45,867 nt of DNA, taken from positions 1 through 45,867 of IMG/VR virus record IMGVR_UViG_3300023443_000078; one strand, given 5' to 3'. A program made the translations under genes and the position numbers. Positions 5,386 through 42,851 of this stretch are shown in pieces (within the stretch, counting starts at the first letter, position 1; each line of letters starts with the position of its first letter). The DNA comes from a virus. The notes under the pieces are model-generated. The model was not told the origin of the DNA. It did not search any database and saw only the letters and a list, made by a program, of their open reading frames with translations.

Positions 5386-7302
5386 TTATCTCTGTGGTGT
5401 AGTTGCGGGAGCAGTGGAAGTAGGAGTAACCACTTGCTCTTTAGGGAAGGTGCTCATGAGTTTGATTATGTGATTACTAACTTCTGTCCTATCCATGAAG
5501 TCTACGATAGTTGTTTTAAGCAGGCCCTCAACAGCAGAAGCTACAGCAGAAGCTACAGCAGCTTCAGTTCCTTTAGTTGCTTTAGTTGCTGTCTTAATTA
5601 CACCTATAGGACCTATGATATCTAATATAACTCCAGTAGTGACCTTTAACCTTTCAAAGGAAGTAGGCTCTCTAAAGAGTACAGCTTTATAAGTTTCCTG
5701 ATTAGGTAATCCTACTCTCCTAAACCCTCCGAACATAGTGTTATTATAGTCAACAGCAGCTGTAAAGATAGTAACTATTCCAGCAGTAGCTTCATCAGGA
5801 GATATAGAGTTGCTTCTTATACCAGCTATTGCAGCTTCCATAATCCTTTGTGGGTTTGTCTCCTTCATAGCCATAGGAGAAAGGACTCTTTTATATAAAG
5901 TAGAATCAGCTACTGCAGCTCTGGTTTCTAGCACAGTCATAGGAGGAGCTTGATACATATTAGTTGTATCGCCTGCTGTAATACCAGAAGCAGCAGTCTT
6001 TGCTAAGTCACTTGCTATAGTATTATAATCAGATTTTATTACAGCATCATCCTTAGGTACGCCATCCTTTCTATACTTCTCCACCTGAACAGTTGCTACT
6101 CTATCTAATAGTCTTGTAGCTGGAGTGCTATCAAAGTTACCTGAAGGAGCTACTATAGATAAAGTCTCACTGGCTTCAAAAGGAGTGCTGCCTAATACAG
6201 GTTGAATAGAGCTTCCTATCTCTAAGAGTTTTCTATACTTAGCTCCTGTGGCTCCAGGCTGATTAAGACCGAAGATTATTCTCTCTCTAGGCTCTATAGC
6301 AAGCCCAGCAGCAGACTGTCCTGATTGCCCTGCATCGCCTAGTTGCTTCTCGATAGTTAATACGTCATTGAATTTCTTAATAGTAGCTGCATTATTAGTT
6401 ATAGCTGCATTTATATCGCCGGGATTAGTTAACTTAGCTGTCTCTAATCTTAAAGCAGCAGCCTCCGCAGCTACCCTAGCGGCAGGTAATGATACCTCCC
6501 ACTCTTTCCTAGCTTGCTCCATCTTCTCTGATTGAAACGCTAGCTGCTTTTCTGCAAACTTCCTCTGTTCAACTTCTCCTTCTATCCTGAATAACTGTAC
6601 CCTATTAGCTACATTCCTAGCACTAGCTGTTTCCATAGCAGCCATTACACTAGCATTAGCATGGATATTCTTTATCTGCTGCTCGGCTGCTTTAACATCT
6701 CCTTCAGCTCCTATGATTCTATAGTTAGCTGCAACAGTTCCTTCATTGAGAGTAGCTTTAGTTAGCGCGTTAACTCTAGCAATAGATTCAGTTGAGGCGG
6801 CAGTATTATTTACTTGCCGTTCTGTATTAGCTAGTTTCGCTTGAGCAGCTGCTAATCTAGTATCTGTTAATTTTAAAGTAAACTTATTCAGCGCGTTATC
6901 TATTATACCAATTCCTGGATCGCCCCTGTCTGTAGAAGCTAAAGCTACCCTCTCAGATAGAATATCCTCCACTCTCTTATTATCTTCAGTGAGCTGTGAT
7001 ATAAGAGCAGCCTGTGCATCAGCGCCTCCTGCTATTTCAAAAGCTTCTATAGTAGCAGTCTGCGCTTGCAAATCTGCATTATCTCTAGCTTTAACTGTGA
7101 TCTGAGTAGCGGCAGTTATATCTGAGATAGAAGCAGTTATCACATCCATTGCTGTCTGTGTCTCTTTAATACCTACCTCAGACTGCTGTATAGTAGATAC
7201 TGTCCTAGCAGTAGATTCAGCTATAGCTTTAGTTATATCATCTATAGAAGTAGTTGGTGTAGTAGCAGGCTCTGCTTGATTTAATATAGGATTGTGCGGC
7301 AT
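5386..7302 (-). CDS. Internal virion protein (T7 gp15-like position)
   Basis: A 638-aa protein, mostly predicted helical, Ala/Thr/Glu-rich with long heptad-like stretches (roughly residues 40-300, many AAE, QLAFQ and ARKEW patterns), consistent with a rod-like internal virion component. It lies immediately upstream of the 1660-aa protein and downstream of two small genes, the same order as the T7 gp13-16 core/ejection genes. Near the C-terminus an ASAV-ASAV tandem is encoded by repeated 12-bp units at about 5543-5570, a likely replication-slippage expansion. No enzymatic motif recognised. Assignment rests on order and composition. Confidence 0.6.
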   Translation of the reverse strand: MPHNPILNQAEPATTPTTSIDDITKAIAESTARTVSTIQQSEVGIKETQTAMDVITASISDITAATQITVKARDNADLQAQTATIEAFEIAGGADAQAALISQLTEDNKRVEDILSERVALASTDRGDPGIGIIDNALNKFTLKLTDTRLAAAQAKLANTERQVNNTAASTESIARVNALTKATLNEGTVAANYRIIGAEGDVKAAEQQIKNIHANASVMAAMETASARNVANRVQLFRIEGEVEQRKFAEKQLAFQSEKMEQARKEWEVSLPAARVAAEAAALRLETAKLTNPGDINAAITNNAATIKKFNDVLTIEKQLGDAGQSGQSAAGLAIEPRERIIFGLNQPGATGAKYRKLLEIGSSIQPVLGSTPFEASETLSIVAPSGNFDSTPATRLLDRVATVQVEKYRKDGVPKDDAVIKSDYNTIASDLAKTAASGITAGDTTNMYQAPPMTVLETRAAVADSTLYKRVLSPMAMKETNPQRIMEAAIAGIRSNSISPDEATAGIVTIFTAAVDYNNTMFGGFRRVGLPNQETYKAVLFREPTSFERLKVTTGVILDIIGPIGVIKTATKATKGTEAAVASAVASAVEGLLKTTIVDFMDRTEVSNHIIKLMSTFPKEQVVTPTSTAPATTPQR

Positions 7303-7317
7303 AGTATCTCCTTAGAC

Positions 7318-7722
7318 TTAAAAACCAAAATCTGTGGTTAGGCCGAACTCATTTTCAAATCCGCTGCCTGTCTGTGCAACAGCTCTTGTAAGATCTTCTG
7401 TTTCAGTTCCTGTGTCTCTAGTAACAGTTTCGCCAGTAAGCTTAGCTAATTCTCCTACTAACTTAGCTGTTAGATCACCTGCTGCTTGCGCTGCTACTGT
7501 ACTGCCAAATATGCCAGCAGTTTGCTCTCCTGCAAAGATCTCAGCTAAGCCACCTGGTCCACTTAGTACATCTTCAATCAGTCTTTCAATAGCAGCATCA
7601 TCTAGCTGTAACTGTTGTGTTCTTGTCTTATCAGTTGTTATTGTTCCTGTTCTATCTTCAGCCAAGTTACTTTTCTCTCTAGTATCTGTCACTTTACCTT
7701 CAGTGCCTGCGCCAAAACTCAT
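7318..7722 (-). CDS. Small virion protein (T7 gp14-like position)
   Basis: A 134-aa protein with a polar Thr/Asp/Glu/Arg-rich N-terminal third (residues 1-40), a central helical Ala/Leu-rich part (about 40-95, including AAGDLTAKLVGELAKLTGE) and a Gly/Phe-rich C-terminus. The minus-strand start at 7722 has AGGAGAAT upstream, a good ribosome site. It sits between the GNAT-like gene and the 638-aa protein, where T7-type phages have a short internal virion protein. No family recognised with certainty; role inferred from order. Confidence 0.55.
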   Translation of the reverse strand: MSFGAGTEGKVTDTREKSNLAEDRTGTITTDKTRTQQLQLDDAAIERLIEDVLSGPGGLAEIFAGEQTAGIFGSTVAAQAAGDLTAKLVGELAKLTGETVTRDTGTETEDLTRAVAQTGSGFENEFGLTTDFGF

Positions 7723-10940: not shown

Positions 10941-13181
10941 CTATGGATTAATAATCTGATAAGTAAAACCACAAAAACCCACTACATTTGTAGCATCTGC
11001 TGTATTTACATCAAATGATACACCTACTACTTTATTTGTAGGAAATAAAGACTTAGAGCTTCCCATTGCAGTAGCGCAGTTAGCATCGCTAGCGCTTAAT
11101 AATATTAAAGAGTTTGCCTTAACTCTAGCGTCTAATACCGTCCTAGTGCTGGCAGTAGTAATACTACTCTCGTCAGTATACTGTGCAGACAATGAAGTAG
11201 AAAATAATTCAGTCCAATGAGTATCACCTGAGTTTGATCTAAGGAAAGATATACTATCCCCTCCGACTAAAACACGATCTATAGAATCTCTAAGCCTAAT
11301 CTTAAAAAAATCATTTTCAATAGTAACGTCTGCATCGCTATTATTAATTACTATTATTACTTGACCTACATACTCAGTTATAAAATCTGTAATAGTAGTA
11401 TTAGCTAGAGTGTCAATAAATTGAAATACATTTCCACCATCTACTGCTGGCGTTGCAGAGTCCTCTAAATTTAATAAAGCGGCAGAGCTGGTAGAAATCT
11501 CACTCGCTGCCGGTACACTTTTTATTGATCTTAGTATATTCTGTTCATTAACTCCAGATTCTATCTCTAGATTATCTGGGCCAGTAGTATTCTTCCATAT
11601 CATTCCAGTAGATATAGGTGAACTAGGAGATGTTGTAATATCATTATCAAATCTAAAACAAAAACCAGAAGAGGATACTCTTAAAAATTCAGTGGATTCA
11701 AAAGTGATAGCATTAAGATTTGAGTTTGATGAAGTAGGGTCTATCATAAACCTAACCCCAAAATCAGCTTGAGGAGAAGTTGCAGCTCCAGCTGATATGT
11801 GAGTACTTACAAAGGAACATGTAGCGACATTGCCTTGAATTTCTATTGCACTTTGTGAACCAGCAGTATCATTACTTCTTGCCTCTAAATGACATCCTGC
11901 AAAGGAAACGCCAGCAAGCGTAGAATTTTGCCCTCTAAGTCTTAGTACTGATCTTGCAGCAGATGTGTCAATATTAAACATTCCACAACTACTAAAGACA
12001 TAAGAATCTATTAATTGAGCATCGGCAAGAAAATACACTGCTGTTTCAAGTCCCCTAAAACTTGAATTATAGAAAGAGCAAACGCCAGTATTAACATCTT
12101 CTGTATTTGTAATAAATAATCCATACTGCCCTCCAATATCAAAAGCTTGATGGGAGCTATATAAACCTAAATGAGAAACTCCATCGATATATAAAATAAC
12201 GCCTGCAGGATTATTATACTGCTCCACTATAACATTATCTAATACTATAAATCCAGAGGTTGTAGAAGGAGAGTTTCCAGCCATTCCTCCAGAGAGTTCA
12301 ATTAATCTTGAGCAAGAAGATAAAACAGAGCTATCTTGTATAGCAATGTTTTCTATCTTTATATCTTTACATCCTCCGTTAGCTAAACTCCAGCCAAGAC
12401 GCAAAGCTGCTGTACTAGTTGAACCTTTAAAGTCGAGTATAGAATTAGGTCCGACTCCTTGAACTACAAGATTCTCCAGACCTTCCTCATCTATATCGCT
12501 TAATAGATATGTACCTTCTGGAAAGAATATAGTACCCCCGCCAACAGCTCTTATATTAATGATTGCAGCGTCCCAAGCGGAAGTGTCATCAGTAACACCA
12601 TCTCCCTTAGCCCCCCAAAACTTAATATTAATAGCTAGTTGAGTATTAACCCAAGCTTCAGAGCCATTGCCTCCAGTAGGTACAATAATATCTATGTTGT
12701 TATCTACAAAAAAGCCGGGCGCTTGGCCAGTAATCTTCTGAAAAAATCCTTCTCCTGCATCTCCTACAGTAGCTTTTCCTTGAGAGTATAAAGTAATCTC
12801 TGTACCTGTATAATCTCTAATAGCCTGATAATTAGTTACAAAAATATCAGTGTCTCTTACATCTACAGTACCTTCAATAGCTACATAGCCTACTGCCACT
12901 ATTTGCTCTCCAGCAACAGCTGGTGTAACTATACTAAAACTAGTCTCGGTCTGCTCTACAAACTCTACTCCAGGAGTAAGAAATCTCTTACCTATTATTG
13001 TAATGTCTGAGTTTTGCCTATACACTTCTAATGAACCTACGCCTAATGTATAAGCAAAATCTGTAATTATGAATAAAGTCTGATTCGCTACTGCTGTGAA
13101 TCTCTGAGTCACTCTTTTAGTATCAGCTGATACTTGTATAATAGTTCTTGGTTGCCAGATATTAGCTTCGCCAGCTGTCAT
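10941..13181 (-). CDS. Tailspike with pectate-lyase-type right-handed beta-helix
   Basis: A 746-aa receptor-binding protein. Residues 1-110 are a beta-rich N-terminal domain like virion-anchoring domains of podovirus fibres. Residues 188-203 (FWGAKGDGVTDDTSAW) are the classic entry of pectate lyase/GH28-like phage spikes (capsule or LPS depolymerases). GGTIFFPEGTYLL and ENLVVQGVG follow as the first coils, then a long run of short Asn/Ser/Gly-rich strands (about 230-540). The C-terminal 200 residues look like a trimerisation/sugar-binding tip. Catalytic Asp/Glu residues cannot be assigned by eye. Enzymatic specificity is unknown; binding of a host surface glycan is inferred. Confidence 0.8.
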   Translation of the reverse strand: MTAGEANIWQPRTIIQVSADTKRVTQRFTAVANQTLFIITDFAYTLGVGSLEVYRQNSDITIIGKRFLTPGVEFVEQTETSFSIVTPAVAGEQIVAVGYVAIEGTVDVRDTDIFVTNYQAIRDYTGTEITLYSQGKATVGDAGEGFFQKITGQAPGFFVDNNIDIIVPTGGNGSEAWVNTQLAINIKFWGAKGDGVTDDTSAWDAAIINIRAVGGGTIFFPEGTYLLSDIDEEGLENLVVQGVGPNSILDFKGSTSTAALRLGWSLANGGCKDIKIENIAIQDSSVLSSCSRLIELSGGMAGNSPSTTSGFIVLDNVIVEQYNNPAGVILYIDGVSHLGLYSSHQAFDIGGQYGLFITNTEDVNTGVCSFYNSSFRGLETAVYFLADAQLIDSYVFSSCGMFNIDTSAARSVLRLRGQNSTLAGVSFAGCHLEARSNDTAGSQSAIEIQGNVATCSFVSTHISAGAATSPQADFGVRFMIDPTSSNSNLNAITFESTEFLRVSSSGFCFRFDNDITTSPSSPISTGMIWKNTTGPDNLEIESGVNEQNILRSIKSVPAASEISTSSAALLNLEDSATPAVDGGNVFQFIDTLANTTITDFITEYVGQVIIVINNSDADVTIENDFFKIRLRDSIDRVLVGGDSISFLRSNSGDTHWTELFSTSLSAQYTDESSITTASTRTVLDARVKANSLILLSASDANCATAMGSSKSLFPTNKVVGVSFDVNTADATNVVGFCGFTYQIINP

Positions 13182-26324: not shown

Positions 26325-27911
26325 CTAGAAGGGTGAGTTAAATTCAGGGACTTCTAAACCATCAAATTCTTGGGACTCTATTATATTACCTGCTATCACA
26401 AACTCTCCAAACTCCTGCACTACTCTAGGTGCATAAGTAAGAAGATCTAATAGCCCATCTGTATTATCTTGTTTCATAGGATTAAACTGAGTAATCTGTA
26501 AGTGCACATCTAGTCTGCAATCTCCATATACATACATTTCACCTTGCGCATATGCTTTAAACATCTCTAGTATTCTAGCATTCTTAGATCTTACTCCAGA
26601 GTATATAGGTACGGCTTCTATTCCTACGACTCCCATCTGCTGACATATGAATTCGAACCAGTAAAGGAGAGAGTACTGGTAAGCATTAGCTTCTACAGCT
26701 ATAAGTCTACAGTTTCTGGTGAGAGCGAAGTTAAGAGCCTTTCTAATGGTTTTTCCTGGAGAGAATCTACCTTCTTCTAATGCCATCATTATAGGAGAAG
26801 CGTCATGTATTTCGAAATAACCTATAGATACTTCATCTGATCCAAGCTTATCTGTAGCTGGATCTATTATAATAAAATTTCCTCCAGCTATATCACCTTC
26901 AGTATAAGGCACTTCTGGTAGCTTAGATAGATCTATAAGATTATTAGCCGAAACATTCTCGTCATTAAGAACTTCTGAATAGAAGATCTCAGGGTGCCCC
27001 ATAGCTAAGTCATTTTCGAACTCTTTAGTAAGCTGTGCTATAGGCTGCAAATCTTCCCATAAGGAGGTACCATTTGCTAATATCCCGCCAGCTATGAACT
27101 TAACCCAAGTATGATTATTCTTAAGTTTACGTAGAATTGAGTGCTTAGTAGGATACATATTAGCTACAAATAAGAACATGCAGCCAGTAGGCGACTTAGC
27201 TTTCATGGCAGTACCTACCATCCAGCTTTCTAAAGAAGCAGATTGTACTTCTGAGTCAGCGCACTCTCTAGATTGTATATCCTCAAATAACATAACATCT
27301 GGTCGAGTATTCTTAATATTTAAGCCGCGTAGAGAAGTCTCTGCTCCAACTGCTGCTATAGTAATGTTTCTTCCTCTAAAACCGAACTTCTTAAGTGACT
27401 GTGTATCCTTCTCTACTCCTAGTTTCCAATCACCAAATACAGATTTAATATTCGGCTCTTCTAGCATATCTACTACGTCAGATAATATGTTCTCAGCAAG
27501 TTTAGCTGTAGCAGAGATAATAAGGATGAATTTGCGCTTAGTGAATAATATGCAGAAGATTATAAAGATCTTCATCAGCGTAGTCTTACCAAAGCCGCGG
27601 GGTAGACCTAATGCTAATTGCGGGAATGTTCTATCTTGATGTACATAAGATAGCAGCCATTGCCACACTGACTTAAATACAGAAGGAAAGCAGAAGGTAA
27701 ATACCATTGGCATTATTAAGCCAGCTAAGAAATCTAAATCACTTTTAGCTGCACTCTGTATCTCTTGTGTAGAAGCTCCTAGCTGGATTACTTCCTCAGC
27801 TTTAGCTGCCCCCTTATCTATAGATGCGCTGTGCGCAGGAGAGAAGCCAGTAGGAAGATCAGAAGAGGAACCTCCTAGGGATTCTAATATACTCTCTGTT
27901 TTATACTCCAT
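26325..27911 (-). CDS. terL: Terminase large subunit
   Basis: A 528-aa packaging motor. ATPase: Walker A GLPRGFGKTT at residues 102-111, Walker B VMLFED at 206-211, with a coupling motif in ISATAKLAENIL around 132-144. Nuclease: IIIDPATDKLGSD at about 347-358 contains the first catalytic Asp (D350), and later an Asp-containing GLLDLLTYAPR near the C-terminus. The architecture resembles T7-type and other podovirus terminases. The stop codon overlaps a 13-nt GCGC hairpin (26314-26326). The start overlaps the preceding 75-aa gene by 11 bases. Confidence 0.9.
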   Translation of the reverse strand: MEYKTESILESLGGSSSDLPTGFSPAHSASIDKGAAKAEEVIQLGASTQEIQSAAKSDLDFLAGLIMPMVFTFCFPSVFKSVWQWLLSYVHQDRTFPQLALGLPRGFGKTTLMKIFIIFCILFTKRKFILIISATAKLAENILSDVVDMLEEPNIKSVFGDWKLGVEKDTQSLKKFGFRGRNITIAAVGAETSLRGLNIKNTRPDVMLFEDIQSRECADSEVQSASLESWMVGTAMKAKSPTGCMFLFVANMYPTKHSILRKLKNNHTWVKFIAGGILANGTSLWEDLQPIAQLTKEFENDLAMGHPEIFYSEVLNDENVSANNLIDLSKLPEVPYTEGDIAGGNFIIIDPATDKLGSDEVSIGYFEIHDASPIMMALEEGRFSPGKTIRKALNFALTRNCRLIAVEANAYQYSLLYWFEFICQQMGVVGIEAVPIYSGVRSKNARILEMFKAYAQGEMYVYGDCRLDVHLQITQFNPMKQDNTDGLLDLLTYAPRVVQEFGEFVIAGNIIESQEFDGLEVPEFNSPF

Positions 27912-28128
27912 AGATTTCTCTAACAGCTACTTCGGTGGAGGAGCGGGAGGCTCTATGAGACCTAGCAGTTAATGTAAGCAGTCTATCTAGCACTGTTTTC
28001 GCGGCCTCTATATCAGAAGAAGGGTATACTATAGGAGTATAAGAAGGACGCTTGCCTTGCATCTTATCTAATACCTCTTGTATGTTAAGATCTACTCCTC
28101 TCTTCTTGTACATGGGATCCCTGCTCAT
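27901..28128 (-). CDS. Small protein linking the terminase genes
   Basis: A 75-aa basic protein (many Arg/Lys; KMQGKRPSYTPIVY; DRLLTLTARSHRASRS). Its 5' end overlaps the small-terminase gene by 44 bases and its 3' end overlaps the large-terminase gene by 11 bases, so it is likely translated by coupling. Family not recognised; perhaps a DNA-packaging or terminase-assembly factor from position. Confidence 0.6.
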   Translation of the reverse strand: MSRDPMYKKRGVDLNIQEVLDKMQGKRPSYTPIVYPSSDIEAAKTVLDRLLTLTARSHRASRSSTEVAVREIYGV

Positions 28129-28780
28129 CTTGTTGTTCTGGATTAAGTAATATCTTAGAGGTTTGATTAGTTATTTGGGCGGTTGCTCTAGCTGCGGTTG
28201 CATCTTCTACTTGTTTAAGTAAGTTACCTGAAGCCATTGTAAGTAGCTCCTGGTCTCCTGCTTTAGTAACTTGGTTATCTATATTAACTGAGAACTTTGC
28301 AGCAATCACTGAAGGAAGTACTAGATTTACTATATTCTGCTGATTAGCTACTTGTTCTGGTGCAGACTGCCCTCTGCGCTTAGCTCCATTAACTACTGTG
28401 ATTGCTTTCAGTATACTCTCAGGTCTCATAAGTAATGGCAAGCTCTTTTCAAGTTTGCGCAGCAGGGTATCTTCTAAGGAGTCATATGATTCATCTCTTA
28501 CATTATGCTTCTGCATATTCTCATAGCGTAAGGTAGCTACTTTATTAGAAAAGCTTTCTTCAGATAAGAGCTGTGAAATTCTTGCTGGTGTAACTCCTAA
28601 TGCAGAAGCTACTGACTCAGCTGCTACGCCGCTACCTAAGAGAGAAAGGGCGCGCTCTTCTGTAGAAGAAGTAAGTCCAGTAGAATACGTAGAACTAGGA
28701 GCAGGCACAAACTCCTCTATACCTCCTAAAGATTCTAAAGTAATAGAGTCTTGCTCTATAGGCAGAGAAGGTTCATACAT
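28085..28780 (-). CDS. terS: Small terminase subunit
   Basis: A 231-aa protein directly before the terL string and first gene of the late block. A helix-turn-helix-like segment (VASALGVTPARISQLLSEES, about residues 56-75) fits the DNA-binding domain of small terminases, followed by a helical oligomerisation part (SLEDTLLRKLEKSLPLLMRPESIL) and a C-terminal beta/helical portal-binding segment. It recognises packaging sites and stimulates TerL. N-terminal 40 residues are low-complexity Ser/Glu. Start ATG at 28780 has AAGGTAC upstream on the minus strand. Confidence 0.75.
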   Translation of the reverse strand: MYEPSLPIEQDSITLESLGGIEEFVPAPSSTYSTGLTSSTEERALSLLGSGVAAESVASALGVTPARISQLLSEESFSNKVATLRYENMQKHNVRDESYDSLEDTLLRKLEKSLPLLMRPESILKAITVVNGAKRRGQSAPEQVANQQNIVNLVLPSVIAAKFSVNIDNQVTKAGDQELLTMASGNLLKQVEDATAARATAQITNQTSKILLNPEQQDEQGSHVQEERSRS

Positions 28781-28811
28781 TGGAAGGTACTCATGATGTA
28801 TATAAAAGAAT

Positions 28812-28840
28812 AGTATATAAGAGATACCTAAAGAAGCTAA
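28812..28840 (-). promoter_or_regulatory. Weak late promoter candidate (TTAGCT-N17-TATACT)
   Basis: On the minus strand TTAGCT (plus 28835-28840) and TATACT (plus 28812-28817) are 17 nt apart. The -10 box is 5 of 6 matches; the -35 is weak. It points at the small terminase gene. Late genes may instead use an unrecognised element or the divergent sites. Confidence 0.3.
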
Positions 28841-28949
28841 TGGGGAATCAGGTGTTTGTAAAAAAGTTTAGGAATAAAATATGAGTCTCTTAGGAGGGCA
28901 CGCGACTGCTAAACGTAAAAGGCTTCCATCCCCCTCCCCTTTTATATAT

Positions 28950-28966
28950 TGGCATAGATCTTGCAT
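28950..28966 (+). promoter_or_regulatory. Sigma-54-like -24/-12 element, copy 1
   Basis: TGGCATAGATCTTGCAT has TGGCA, then TTGCA with GG and GC exactly 12 bp apart, matching the YTGGCAY-N5/6-TTGCW sigma-54 consensus. If used, transcription would start near 28976 towards the early genes. Such promoters need a host activator (AAA+ enhancer-binding protein). Confidence 0.5.
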
Positions 28967-28979
28967 GATAGAGCATAGC

Positions 28980-28996
28980 TGGCATAGATCTTGCAT
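28980..28996 (+). promoter_or_regulatory. Sigma-54-like -24/-12 element, copy 2
   Basis: An exact repeat of the 17-bp element 30 bp downstream of copy 1. The start site would be near 29006. Two identical copies 30 bp apart (about three helical turns) argue that the element is a selected site and not chance. Confidence 0.5.
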
Positions 28997-29056
28997 ACCT
29001 ATAAGTAAGGGTTCTTATAAGTAGGGGTGATAGAGGAAATAAATCTTACGATGAGC

Positions 29057-29084
29057 TTGCTTGCACACTTAGGTGTAGTATACT
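29057..29084 (+). promoter_or_regulatory. Early promoter (TTGCTT-N16-TATACT)
   Basis: TTGCTT (29057-29062) and TATACT (29079-29084) are 16 nt apart, the same spacing as two other promoters in this genome. It lies 59 nt before the first early ATG. The dyad at 29065-29076 occupies its spacer. Confidence 0.45.
29065..29076. promoter_or_regulatory. Operator-like dyad ACACTTAGGTGT, copy 1
   Basis: A 12-bp dyad with central TTAG, inside the spacer of the early promoter. A bound protein would block polymerase. The binder is unknown. Confidence 0.4.
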
Positions 29085-29102
29085 TAGAGGGTAAGATACA
29101 TA

Positions 29103-29114
29103 GCACTTAGGTGC
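29103..29114. promoter_or_regulatory. Operator-like dyad GCACTTAGGTGC, copy 2
   Basis: Same CACTTAGGTG core as copy 1, 38 bp downstream, in the leader of the first early gene. Confidence 0.4.
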
Positions 29115-29142
29115 ATACATACATAGATAGGAGTACATAGAT

Positions 29143-29442
29143 ATGAGCACGACACTTAGATATAGTAAGAAAGAATGGGCTATAGCTGTAGCATTAGAAT
29201 GTATACTAAAGGAAGCTGGCACGGATACACCACTAGATATAACTCTAGAGCATAGATCAGAAGGTATGGCTGCTACATTAGAGGCTGTAAAGAGTGAATC
29301 TTTAGACTCTCAGGTGATCTATACTGTGGAGATAGCGTTTAAGAGTATAGCTGGTATAGATAATTGGCATGTAAGTTCTGTAGTTATTAAGTACCTGAAT
29401 AGAGGTGTTACATATAACTACATAACTAGAGAGTACACATAG
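29143..29442 (+). CDS. First early protein, unknown
   Basis: A 99-aa protein with AGGAG at 29129-29133 before its ATG. Alpha/beta: an N-terminal helix (EWAIAVALECILKEAG), then strands (SQVIYTVEIAFKSI; HVSSVVIKYLNRGVTYNYI). No membrane segment, no known motif. First gene after the early control elements, the usual place for host take-over or anti-defence proteins in phages, but that is only position. Confidence 0.55.
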   Translation: MSTTLRYSKKEWAIAVALECILKEAGTDTPLDITLEHRSEGMAATLEAVKSESLDSQVIYTVEIAFKSIAGIDNWHVSSVVIKYLNRGVTYNYITREYT

Positions 29443-32553: not shown

Positions 32554-34197
32554 ATGACTAGTATAAATATGATAGCTCTACTAGCTAAAGCTAGAGAGAA
32601 AGATAAAAATCGCATCCCAGAACCTGAATCTAACTTGCAAGAATCTAATGCGCAGCAAGCGCAAGGTATGCATGGGGAAGCTATAACTTATAACTTACAG
32701 CAGCAAGAGTTTGTAAGCACTGTAGCTTCTGGCAAATCATGTGTTCTTATTGGTGCTGCTGGTACTGGTAAGACTACCTGCTCTCAAGGAGGTATAAGCG
32801 CGCTAATAGATACTTCCACCATACCTATCTTACAAGCAGAGGGGCATAAACATCTGCTTTCTGGCTCCTCTGGTATTCTCATAATCTCATATACCCGACG
32901 AGCTGTTAATAACATAAGAAAAATACAATCCAAAGACTTAAAGCATAACTGCATAACTGCTCATAAGCTCCTAGAATACCAGCCTGTATATTATGAAATG
33001 CTAGATCCCGAATCAGGGGAAACTAAGAAAACTATGGCATTTGAACCTAATAGAAATGCCACTAATCCATTACCTAACTCTATTCACACCATAATAGTAG
33101 AAGAAGCTTCTATGCTCTCTCTAGCTCTATTCGCTGAGATACAAGCAGCTTTAAAGCATAAAGTGCAATGGATTTTTATAGGTGATATACAGCAACTGCC
33201 TCCTGTATTTGGCTCAGCTATCTTAGGTTTCAAGATGCTAGAACTGCCTGTAATAGAACTCACTACAGTGTACAGACAAGCGCTAAAATCACCTATAATA
33301 AGGCTAGCTCATAGGATACTTTCTGGTAAGCCTATACCGGGAGATGAGTATCCAGACTGGCTACATGAAGATAAGCTAACTTTGCGCCCATGGAAAAAGA
33401 AACTAGACCCTGAATTAGCAACTATGACACTAGCAGCATTCTTTAAAGGAGCTATAGATAAGGGAATATATAACCCAACAGAGGATATGATACTCATACC
33501 TTATAATAAATCATGTGGCACCATAGAACTTAATAAGCATATAGCGAACCATCTAGCTAGAAAGAGAGAAGCTATAACTTATGAGATACAAGCAGGATTC
33601 TCTAAGCATTACTTCTCTATAGGTGATAAGGTTCTATATAATAGAGAAGATGCTGAGATTATAGATATAGGCATTAATTCTATGTATGCGGGCTCTAAAG
33701 TACAGCCATCTTCTAAGCATCTAGACTATTGGGGACATAACCCAAAGCTAGCAGAAGAGAGATCTAGATCTAGCTCATATGATGCTAGTGCTGAAGAGGG
33801 AGAATATGATATAGATGCATTCTTAGAGAATATAGCTGATAATGAGGAGAGAGTTACTAAAGCATCGCATGCTATAACAGTGCGGCTCTTAGATACAGCT
33901 TCAGAAGTTACAGTGGATAAAGCAGCGGAAGTTAATAGCTTACTCCATTCTTATGCTCTTACTGTGCATAAAGCACAAGGCTCTGAATGGAGGAAAGTAT
34001 TCTTTTGCTTACATCAATCACATGCTACAATGTTACAGAGAGAGCTTCTATATACAGGAGTCACTAGAGCTAGAGAAGAGTTATTTATGATATGTGAGCC
34101 TGAGTCTTTTACTAAGGGAATAATATCTCAAAAGATTAAGGGTGAGACATTAGAAGAGAAAGCAGAATACTTTAAAGGGAAGTTAGAGAAAAAATAA
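32554..34197 (+). CDS. SF1 DNA helicase (RecD2/Dda-like)
   Basis: A 547-aa superfamily 1 helicase. Motif I GAAGTGKTT at residues 68-75; motif II IIVEEASM (about 182); motif III FIGDIQQLPPV (about 210); motif IV/V region ILIPYNKSCGTIELN; motif VI ALTVHKAQGSEW (about 468), then a LYTGVTRAREELF segment. This set is typical of RecD2/Dda 5'-3' helicases used in phage replication and recombination. An acidic Ser/Glu/Asp insertion (about 404-435) before motif VI is not usual for the family. The first 40 residues are charged. Its role is fork unwinding or recombination. Confidence 0.85.
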   Translation: MTSINMIALLAKAREKDKNRIPEPESNLQESNAQQAQGMHGEAITYNLQQQEFVSTVASGKSCVLIGAAGTGKTTCSQGGISALIDTSTIPILQAEGHKHLLSGSSGILIISYTRRAVNNIRKIQSKDLKHNCITAHKLLEYQPVYYEMLDPESGETKKTMAFEPNRNATNPLPNSIHTIIVEEASMLSLALFAEIQAALKHKVQWIFIGDIQQLPPVFGSAILGFKMLELPVIELTTVYRQALKSPIIRLAHRILSGKPIPGDEYPDWLHEDKLTLRPWKKKLDPELATMTLAAFFKGAIDKGIYNPTEDMILIPYNKSCGTIELNKHIANHLARKREAITYEIQAGFSKHYFSIGDKVLYNREDAEIIDIGINSMYAGSKVQPSSKHLDYWGHNPKLAEERSRSSSYDASAEEGEYDIDAFLENIADNEERVTKASHAITVRLLDTASEVTVDKAAEVNSLLHSYALTVHKAQGSEWRKVFFCLHQSHATMLQRELLYTGVTRAREELFMICEPESFTKGIISQKIKGETLEEKAEYFKGKLEKK

Positions 34198-40281: not shown

Positions 40282-40425
40282 ATGAAAGATTCAAAGTATA
40301 TCTTAACTCTTCAAGTAGATAATCCCGGCGGAGTTCCTGAGATTAAGGTGCATAATAAGAGACTAAGGCAGATAGCAGCAAAACTGAAAAGGTTAGAGAA
40401 AGCTATTTTGAGAAAAACAACATGA
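40282..40425 (+). CDS. Small basic protein before the polymerase
   Basis: A 47-aa frame: ATG at 40282 with AAGGAG upstream, TGA at 40423-40425 overlapping the polymerase ATG at 40422 as ATGA. Lys/Arg-rich C-terminus (HNKRLRQIAAKLKRLEKAIL), helical. Translation is coupled to the polymerase. Function unknown. Confidence 0.6.
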   Translation: MKDSKYILTLQVDNPGGVPEIKVHNKRLRQIAAKLKRLEKAILRKTT

Positions 40426-42851
40426 GCCCCGATCCTAAACTATCACTTTCGTCCCACATAGCTAATCTAAGAGCTAAAGAAGAAGCTGCACCTACAGCCC
40501 CAGCAGCAGATGATGCTATAATCTTTTGGGGAACTTCAGCAGATAAGTCTTACCTCCCTCAGCTTAAAGGATGTGTAGGATCAGCAACCACATTCCTGCG
40601 CTTAGAAACAGTAACCACACTAACCACTGTAAAGTTATACTGTTCACAGAAGAAAGTCTCCCGCATAGTATCCTCCTCTCCTTCTCTACTTACTAAGCTA
40701 CTTAAATGGGACAAGAGACGAGCACCCTCTCTAGCAAATTATGCAGGCTCTTACTTTACCCTTCCCGGATTTAAAGATACAGATCCAGAGATAGAGATAG
40801 TATTCATTCAGCCATTGAAGCAGTTAGTAACTGTAACCTATGGTAAGTTCATGGCTACCAGGATCATAACCAAGCTTACTAAGCCAGAGAAATGGTATAA
40901 AGCTACGAGTTTTGATGGATGTACTATACTTACTCCTGGAAATGAATCGCACCTATTCGATTGGCTTAGTAAGTGCTCTCTTATATGCATAGACATAGAA
41001 ACATTCAGAGAGAATGCAACCATAAGATGCCTATCTTATACAGGATTCTATTACCACTCACATAGGAACACGTGGATATCAGATTCTATAGTACTCCCCT
41101 TAGATTCAGACTATAACCTAGCTATCATGAGGAGATGGAACTATGATCTTAAAGCCCCGAAAGTTCTTCAAAATGGTAAGTACGATATATCATACCTTTC
41201 AAGATATTCTGCTCCTGTATATAACTATCTATATGATACTGCTAATTTTTTCCATTCATGGTACTCTGAGCTTCCCAAAGATCTAGGATTCTTAAACACT
41301 TTCTTCATTCGTGAAGCTGTGTACTGGAAAGACTTAGCAGAGACTAATGACCTAGAAGCATATTACAGGTACAATGCACTAGATACTTGGGGTACTGGTA
41401 ACTGTTTCTTAGCTATGCTATTAGAAGCTCCAGCTTGGGCAGTACAGAACTATCTCTTAGAATTCCCTCTTACATTTCCTTGTCACATGGCAGAGATGAG
41501 AGGTATAGCTAGAGATATGGATACATTAGAAGAAGCAAGAGCAGAACAGCAGAAGATAATAGATGCAGAAAGCGATTCTCTTAATACTATCTTAAGTATT
41601 CCTGAAGGCGAGACCTTTAATGTAAACTCGCCACCACAAATGAAGAGTCTTTTAAAAATTCTAGGCTGCGTAGATTTAAAATCAGCAGATGAGAAGCATC
41701 TTAAGAAAGCTAGATTCAGACATCCATTAAATGCAAGGATAATTAATCATGTTATTAGAATCAGAAAAGCTAGAAAGCTTGTCTCTACGTACCTTACAGC
41801 AGGCAAGGAGTTCAGCAGACAAGATGGCACAGGAGCTAGAATTCTATATGCTCTCAATCCGCATGCTACGGACACATCTAGACTTGCATCTAGGGAGCAC
41901 CACTTCTGGTGCGGACTTCAGGTCCAAAACATCCCAAGAGGACCAGCGGTTAAAAGAACTCTCAGAGCAGATCCTGGTTTCTATCTCAATGAGGTCGACT
42001 TAGAACAAGCAGAGTCTAGAGATACAGCTTACTTATCAGGGGATAAGAATCTAATAGAGAATGTAGAACACTCCCCAGACTTCCATTGTGCTAATGCATC
42101 TTCATTCTTTGGTATCCCATTTGAAGAGTTATATGATGCAGCTACAGGAACCAAACTTAATAAACCTATACGACAGCTATCTAAGAATGTGAATCATGGA
42201 GCTAATTATAATATGGGACCTTATGTCCTAGTAGATACTATGGGAGAAGAGAACATAGTAATAGCTAAGAAGCTGCTAGAGCTACCCCGCTTCTGGTCTT
42301 ATATACAAGTTGCTGAGTACCTCTTAGAGCAGTTTCATAAAACATACCCATCTATTAAAGATGTATTCTATGCTGGAGTAGTAGAAGAGATACTTACTAC
42401 ACACAAGCTAGAGAGTAAAGCGTATCATTGGACGCCAGAAGATGTAGAGATCTACCCTACAAGTAAATGCATAAGTCCAGTAAACTGGGATAAATATCCT
42501 GCATGGACTCGCTACTGCTTTGGATCACCAGAGAAGAATAAGCGACATCTTAATTCCTACATAGCTCATCCACCACAGTCTCTTAATGCGCAGACTCTTA
42601 ATAAAGCATTCCTATCTGTGTTCCATGATATAGCAATGCACCCTTCCCATAGTAAGAACTTCAAACTCATAGCTCAAATCCATGACTCTATCCTATTCCA
42701 ATACAGGATAGGACATGAATACCTAGCTGATATGGTTAAGGAAAGAATGGAGATACCAATTACTATCAAAGGATATGATGGTGAGATAAGGACATTTGTA
42801 GTTCCAGCAGATGCCAGTGAAGGCGGAAAGTATTGGAGTGATATTAAATAA
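40422..42851 (+). CDS. polA: Family A DNA polymerase with 3'-5' exonuclease
   Basis: An 809-aa replicative polymerase. Exonuclease: D191 and E193 (CIDIET), D255 (NGKYD), Y317 and D321 (YNALD). Polymerase motif A D526 in VDLEQAESR (E531, R533); motif B R584, K588 and Y596 in RQLSKNVNHGANYN; motif C H754-D755 (AQIHDSIL). The residue that aligns with E. coli Phe762 (T7 Tyr526) is H592, where Phe, Tyr or Leu are normal, and the Gly after the O-helix Tyr is Asn. No 5'-3' exonuclease. Lies with a helicase and a DUF3987-like ATPase, forming the replisome. Confidence 0.9.
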   Translation: MSPDPKLSLSSHIANLRAKEEAAPTAPAADDAIIFWGTSADKSYLPQLKGCVGSATTFLRLETVTTLTTVKLYCSQKKVSRIVSSSPSLLTKLLKWDKRRAPSLANYAGSYFTLPGFKDTDPEIEIVFIQPLKQLVTVTYGKFMATRIITKLTKPEKWYKATSFDGCTILTPGNESHLFDWLSKCSLICIDIETFRENATIRCLSYTGFYYHSHRNTWISDSIVLPLDSDYNLAIMRRWNYDLKAPKVLQNGKYDISYLSRYSAPVYNYLYDTANFFHSWYSELPKDLGFLNTFFIREAVYWKDLAETNDLEAYYRYNALDTWGTGNCFLAMLLEAPAWAVQNYLLEFPLTFPCHMAEMRGIARDMDTLEEARAEQQKIIDAESDSLNTILSIPEGETFNVNSPPQMKSLLKILGCVDLKSADEKHLKKARFRHPLNARIINHVIRIRKARKLVSTYLTAGKEFSRQDGTGARILYALNPHATDTSRLASREHHFWCGLQVQNIPRGPAVKRTLRADPGFYLNEVDLEQAESRDTAYLSGDKNLIENVEHSPDFHCANASSFFGIPFEELYDAATGTKLNKPIRQLSKNVNHGANYNMGPYVLVDTMGEENIVIAKKLLELPRFWSYIQVAEYLLEQFHKTYPSIKDVFYAGVVEEILTTHKLESKAYHWTPEDVEIYPTSKCISPVNWDKYPAWTRYCFGSPEKNKRHLNSYIAHPPQSLNAQTLNKAFLSVFHDIAMHPSHSKNFKLIAQIHDSILFQYRIGHEYLADMVKERMEIPITIKGYDGEIRTFVVPADASEGGKYWSDIK

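Follow-up and report, generated by a model that had tools for sequence, protein, structure and literature searches.

We analysed the whole phage record IMGVR_UViG_3300023443_000078 of IMG/VR (positions 1 to 45,867; 45,867 bases, hereafter the window), in which a -24/-12 element at 28980, with its core duplicated at 28950, is probably a host-activated sigma-54 (RpoN) promoter from which the rightward early operon would start at about 29006. As judged from its sequence, the element belongs to the sigma-54 promoters, a known kind. Early transcription in phages usually starts immediately from strong sigma-70 promoters; a sigma-54 promoter gives no transcript before an activator ATPase has opened it. 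Since two near-perfect sigma-54 signals precede the first genes, and the same signal is present in about one-third of the relatives, a host regulator may gate infection. If so, these phages would infect yet wait for a host signal, or would favour cells whose pathway is active, and the element would give a way of approaching dormancy or deferred lysis of uncultured phages from their sequences. Our searches of the open-access literature, to which subscription papers do not belong, turned up no account of sigma-54 early promoters in virulent phages, of sigma-54/sigma-70 alternation in phages or of phage activators beside such promoters; a host-activated sigma-54 early promoter would be a widespread phage strategy, apparently an undescribed one.

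The two -24/-12 elements of the divergent region

The leftward genes of the window form its structural side (tailspike-like, SU10-type capsid and terminase). Rightward, an operon beginning at 29143 runs from small ORFs to a helicase, a PD-(D/E)XK nuclease, a Sak4-like ATPase, DNA polymerase A, a primase and a DHH phosphoesterase, and its gene content suggests that these are the early genes. The features examined are summarized in Table 1. Among them, the block AAAAAGTTTAG...AAAAGGCTTCCATCCCCC upstream of the elements is perhaps a packaging site or a leader element. The tailspike-like protein (10941-13181, minus strand) contains a pectate-lyase-like stretch and gives a weak phage depolymerase match at its C-terminus.

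Table 1. Features of the window and, in the last three rows, of other records
Feature	Position	Strand	Remarks
Large terminase	26325..27911	-	Anchor for gathering relatives; homology to PaMx41 gp07
Probable small terminase	28085..28780	-	Upstream-region anchor; assigned by position, as PaMx41 gp05
Divergent intergenic region, terminase side versus early operon	28781..29142	.	362 bp, from the ORF map
Nearest IHF-like sequence, unconvincing	28846..28858	+	One mismatch; the start lies about 150 bp downstream
Block AAAAAGTTTAG...AAAAGGCTTCCATCCCCC	28860..28939	+	Shared by relatives that have the -24/-12 site and by others that lack it
-24/-12 element, copy 1	28950..28966	+	Same core as copy 2 but a weaker downstream part; predicted +1 = 28976
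-24/-12 element, copy 2	28980..28996	+	Best-scoring site in the entire window; predicted +1 = 29006
AT-rich segment of copy 2 between -12 and +1, CCTATAAG with adjoining bases	28997..29005	+	
Possible 5'-terminal hairpin, TAAG-GGTT-CTTA	29006..29017	+	Begins at predicted +1 of copy 2; read from the sequence
Best sigma-70-like candidate, TTGCTT-N16-TATACT	29057..29084	+	Score 8.9 versus random mean 8.65
ORF 1 of the rightward operon	29143..29442	+	99 aa, without family match
Dda/RecD2-like helicase, rightward operon	32554..34197	+	
DNA polymerase A, rightward operon	40422..42851	+	
L264, PF00158 protein gene	6734-7441	-	Gene end about 20 bp ahead of the -24/-12 site
G031 (L327), PF00158 gene	27182-28069	-	Site at 27133
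G049, activator domain	11626-12138		Sites at 12359 and 42282, both intergenic

The sequence TGGCATAGATCTTGCAT occurs in two exact plus-strand copies (28950-28966 and 28980-28996) whose starts are 30 bp apart, as an earlier note on this DNA had claimed. No further match with up to three mismatches was found on either strand of the 45.9 kb, and shuffled versions of the window gave a mean of 0.28 matches at this threshold, with two being reached in 2 of 100 shuffles. The exact 17-mer also occurs in other viral contigs. Both copies agree with TGGCAYR-N4-TTGCW, the sigma-54 consensus, in all 12 defined positions and keep the 12-bp GG-to-GC register of -24/-12 promoters (GG at 28951-28952 and GC at 28963-28964 in copy 1; GG at 28981-28982 and GC at 28993-28994 in copy 2), which bears out the spacing, the TGGCA and the TTGC described in that note. 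Starts were predicted with the rule for mapped E. coli sigma-54 sites, by which the distance from the motif centre downstream to +1 is 19 bp (PMC4591121), and the predictions coincide with the two positions that the note had expected.

Using a 36-column scoring matrix trained on relatives with the window left out, we obtained a score of 25.1 for copy 2, within the range of the other sites, and 13.6 for copy 1, while the random-sequence maximum on the same matrix was 15.6 (n=315). The lower score of copy 1 comes from the bases that follow its TTGC, which are not AT-rich; positions -11 to -1 are AT-rich in copy 2 and not in copy 1. Given these scores, copy 2 is the most likely functional sigma-54 promoter, and the idea of tandem promoters survives for copy 2, with its full profile, and is reduced to a matching core for copy 1. 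The possible hairpin at the copy 2 start is weak here, and the window sequence prefers another fold, itself weak (-0.6 kcal/mol). A sigma-70 promoter was also considered as the early promoter of the window and rejected, since the best candidate was no better than random sequence; a promoter scan of the window did not report it.

Recurrence of the element and its accompanying signals in relatives

Several hundred loci with terminase relatives were gathered from viral contigs and reduced to 100 non-redundant regions, each being the 1.1-kb stretch that precedes the small terminase, which is the equivalent divergent region; with the scan limited to this length, some motif-free relatives may be false negatives. 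On the early strand, the exact motif was present in 19 of the 100 regions and a match with at most one mismatch in 37, against first-order Markov expectations of 0.05 and 1.9, respectively. Other spacers from 0 to 10 yielded 0 to 2 exact matches, and the opposite strand yielded 2. In a set of 23 records, the motif gave 31 matches and its reversed pattern gave none. Within the relatives' sites, the N4 is variable and TGGCA and TGC are almost invariant; more than one site was also seen in L024, L075 and L243. The matrix scores were bimodal among the relatives, with either a clear site or a random-looking sequence.

A first batch of relatives had pointed to this recurrence; the second, non-overlapping batch, used as a test, contained the exact motif in 2 of 31 and no exact match for any other spacer, and we therefore regard the trait as patchy. 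On the terminase tree, it changes at least 15 times on well-supported branches. The expected conservation of the spaced GG and GC thus proved rigid wherever the element is present (19 exact matches at N4 against 0 to 2 at other spacers) and failed in that the nearest relatives mostly lack the element. Loss of the spacing in close relatives, which the earlier note had named as evidence against its reading, was literally found in part, as L003, L083, L189 and L197 are without the element. Since the spacing never drifts and the element is either intact or gone, our reading of these losses is promoter exchange. L083 carries a sigma-70-like TTGCAA-N17-TATAAT in place of the element. A strong sigma-70 promoter was detected in 1 of 36 relatives with the site versus 17 of 57 without it (Fisher p = 0.001, ignoring kinship), and a phylogenetically independent pair test of sigma-54 versus sigma-70, which has low power, gave a median p of 0.38.

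Matches on the opposite strand were also observed. L047, L224, L166 and L222 have a second -24/-12 match directed toward the terminase operon, about 70 to 130 bp from the early site, and these are possible divergent sigma-54 promoters for late genes. L083, a full-length close relative whose early strand has no site, carries one exact opposite-strand match inside its early region (6057-6072, minus strand).

The columns 3' of TTGC in the relatives' sites are AT-rich and often read TATATA. Most of these sites are accompanied by a short hairpin of variable sequence near the predicted +1, strong in many relatives; over the first 22 nt counted from +1, the mean folding energy was -4.1 kcal/mol, compared with about -0.4 to -1.3 kcal/mol for segments from +6 to +84, and a second dip at -30 (-3.4) spans the -24/-12 element itself. 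The location of the hairpin at the start given by the sigma-54 rule suggests that transcripts do begin there; the hairpin, near the predicted 5' end of the early mRNA, possibly stabilises it.

An IHF site or another bend between enhancer and promoter is common, though not universal, in sigma-54 promoters. Of 37 site-bearing relatives, 10 have the exact IHF consensus WATCAAN4TTR no more than 150 bp upstream, compared with 0.3 expected at random; none of 200 random runs reached 10, other spacers never gave more than 1, no match lay downstream, and only 1 of 63 relatives without the site had one. No exact IHF site was found in the window. Palindromes with 6-base arms are also in excess upstream of the relatives' sites (55 versus 21, random maximum 37), and the IHF site is placed between palindromes and promoter, as in the bacterial UAS-IHF-promoter order. 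The palindromes differ between phages, as if the activators differed: they include TGACAA-n3-TTGTCA, CGGCAA-n3-TTGCCG and TGTCAC-n3-GTGACA, as well as half-sites GCACCA, which resemble those of NtrC. In L047, L063 and L065, several 15-bp palindromes TGACAA-n3-TTGTCA stand in tandem in the upstream region. A near-identical GTGACAATTTTTGTCAC precedes the site in phages of another, unrelated group (L266, L277, L280, L288, L289, L301, L305 and L313), and the occurrence of these similar sequences in the window's family and in the L266 group suggests a shared activator. In the window, no convincing enhancer palindrome was found at the usual place.

Occurrence beyond the family and phage-encoded activators

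The extended motif TGGCAYRN4TTGCTTATATA was found in 65 IMG/VR contigs and its N5 version in 3; most of the 65 matches lie outside ORFs of at least 100 codons, and the contigs make up 24 groups between which no protein kinship was detected at our thresholds. Comparison with relatives and with IMG/VR thus argues strongly for the sigma-54-type promoter that the earlier note had proposed.

A gene for a sigma-54 activator (PF00158) was detected in 10 of the 48 searched records carrying the motif with TATATA, with E values down to 4e-61, and in the records read closely, which come from phages unrelated to the window, it adjoins the site (Table 1). In L264, which belongs to one large group, it encodes a 235-aa protein (E 9e-55) with a Walker A sequence GESGTGKE and a GSFTGA loop; no DNA-binding domain was detected in this protein or in the L327/G031 activator. 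In G031, 4 of the 6 exact sites overlap ORFs, so that not every match is a promoter. PHROGs lists the family of the activator, phrog_7998, as of unknown function, and our matches suggest that it contains phage sigma-54 activators. Matches of the phage bEBP in the phage collection were discarded, as they look like bacterial contigs deposited as phages; such bacterial-looking records are CAKLQF/CAKLQH, AGRM and AFYI, with the annotations glnG, prpR and atoC.

A PF00158 search of the window and 20 other phage records, mostly relatives, gave no match, in agreement with the earlier statement that no activator gene is visible in the phage, and a phage-encoded activator in the window's own family was accordingly rejected. 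We think it somewhat more probable than the opposite that sigma-54 promoters are a general, repeatedly acquired gating device for virulent phages, which would rely on a host bEBP as gatekeeper and on sigma-70/sigma-54 switching in the window's family, and in other lineages on a bEBP of their own, free of a DNA-binding domain and encoded directly before the promoter.

Proposed mechanism, alternatives and related systems

In the proposed mechanism, host RNA polymerase with sigma-54 would bind at 28980 as a closed complex, a host AAA+ enhancer-binding ATPase (bEBP) would open it, and the early operon would then be read from about 29006; through its dependence on the bEBP, early transcription would be tied to the state of a host signalling pathway. 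In the relatives, IHF would bend the DNA and so bring the enhancer-bound activator to the polymerase; the enhancer of the window may be degenerate or further away, or may be unneeded if the activator works from solution. Over the history of the family, the core promoter would have alternated with sigma-70 promoters. We infer sigma-54 binding, the identity of the activator, the early timing and the physiological meaning from sequence, and likewise a connection with nutrient or stress conditions and the presence of rpoN in the host.

The two sites might instead bind sigma-54 polymerase without driving the operon, as a roadblock, a decoy or relics, while a sigma-70 promoter such as the candidate in Table 1 starts early transcription. 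Such a role would fit the missing IHF and enhancer parts in the window, the absence of the element from the nearest relatives, some of which have sigma-70-like promoters, and the many intragenic sites among those mapped for sigma-54 in E. coli (PMC4591121). We nevertheless consider it unlikely, since the sigma-70 candidate is at random level, just 1 of 36 relatives with the site has a strong sigma-70 promoter, and the hairpin is kept near the sigma-54-rule start, where simple binding would not require one.

That the copies are identical and separated by 30 bp, about three helical turns, would also suit operator or origin repeats of 17 bp for a phage or host DNA-binding protein, with an accidental likeness to -24/-12 promoters. 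Iterons, however, would keep the whole unit conserved, whereas the relatives vary the four central bases freely, mostly have a single copy and hold the GG/GC spacing fixed; as the motif is moreover accompanied by IHF sites and phage bEBP genes, this explanation appears very improbable. Patchiness within the window's own branch is what a chance likeness, or a functionless local duplication in this phage, would predict; yet about 0.0005 exact matches are expected per region, copy 2 agrees with a matrix from whose training the window was left out, and the reversed pattern is absent where the motif matches 31 times, which leaves such an origin barely credible. A host-activated sigma-54 promoter is the reading that we retain.

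Host assignment was attempted by several routes. No near match was found in the phage collection for window positions 20001-45000 or for four other sigma-54-bearing contigs, and no tRNA genes were found in the window; four related contigs in genome bins, all without the motif, point to conflicting hosts (Coxiella, Anaerolineae, Ponticaulis and another bacterium). The nearest cultured relatives are Fredfastierviridae (Jamesmcgillvirus: PaMx41, PaP2 and 119X) and Aeromonas phage P5, with which the window shares divergent terminase/structural and replication operons at 32-36% identity in the terminase and 25-33% in the DNA polymerase (for Jamesmcgillvirus, distant homology at 32% and about 25%, with a similar layout). 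Unlike the window, none of the distant cultured relatives P5, PaMx41, Tiera and EBPR podovirus 3 has an exact -24/-12 site; cultured relatives were therefore rejected as a ready test system.

The element resembles bacterial RpoN promoters of the glnAp2 or nif type in its TGGCAYR-N4-TTGCW core and AT-rich start region, and differs from them in standing before early genes in a phage genome and in the lack of a recognisable UAS or IHF site in the window. Use of a non-housekeeping sigma factor would be shared with phiEco32-like phages and Pectobacterium phage Q19, but these encode their own factor (in Q19, a sigma-like protein known from a weak HHpred prediction only), whereas here host sigma-54 would serve (PMC8948821, PMC7693777). 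The closest concept is CtrA control in phages of Alphaproteobacteria, where promoters of several unrelated phage lineages are wired to a host regulator (PMC9437464). That regulator is the response regulator CtrA, demonstrated by binding and reporter tests, and in the present case it would be the alternative sigma factor itself. CtrA control of phages evolved several times and was proposed to couple the phage programme to the state of the host (PMC9437464).
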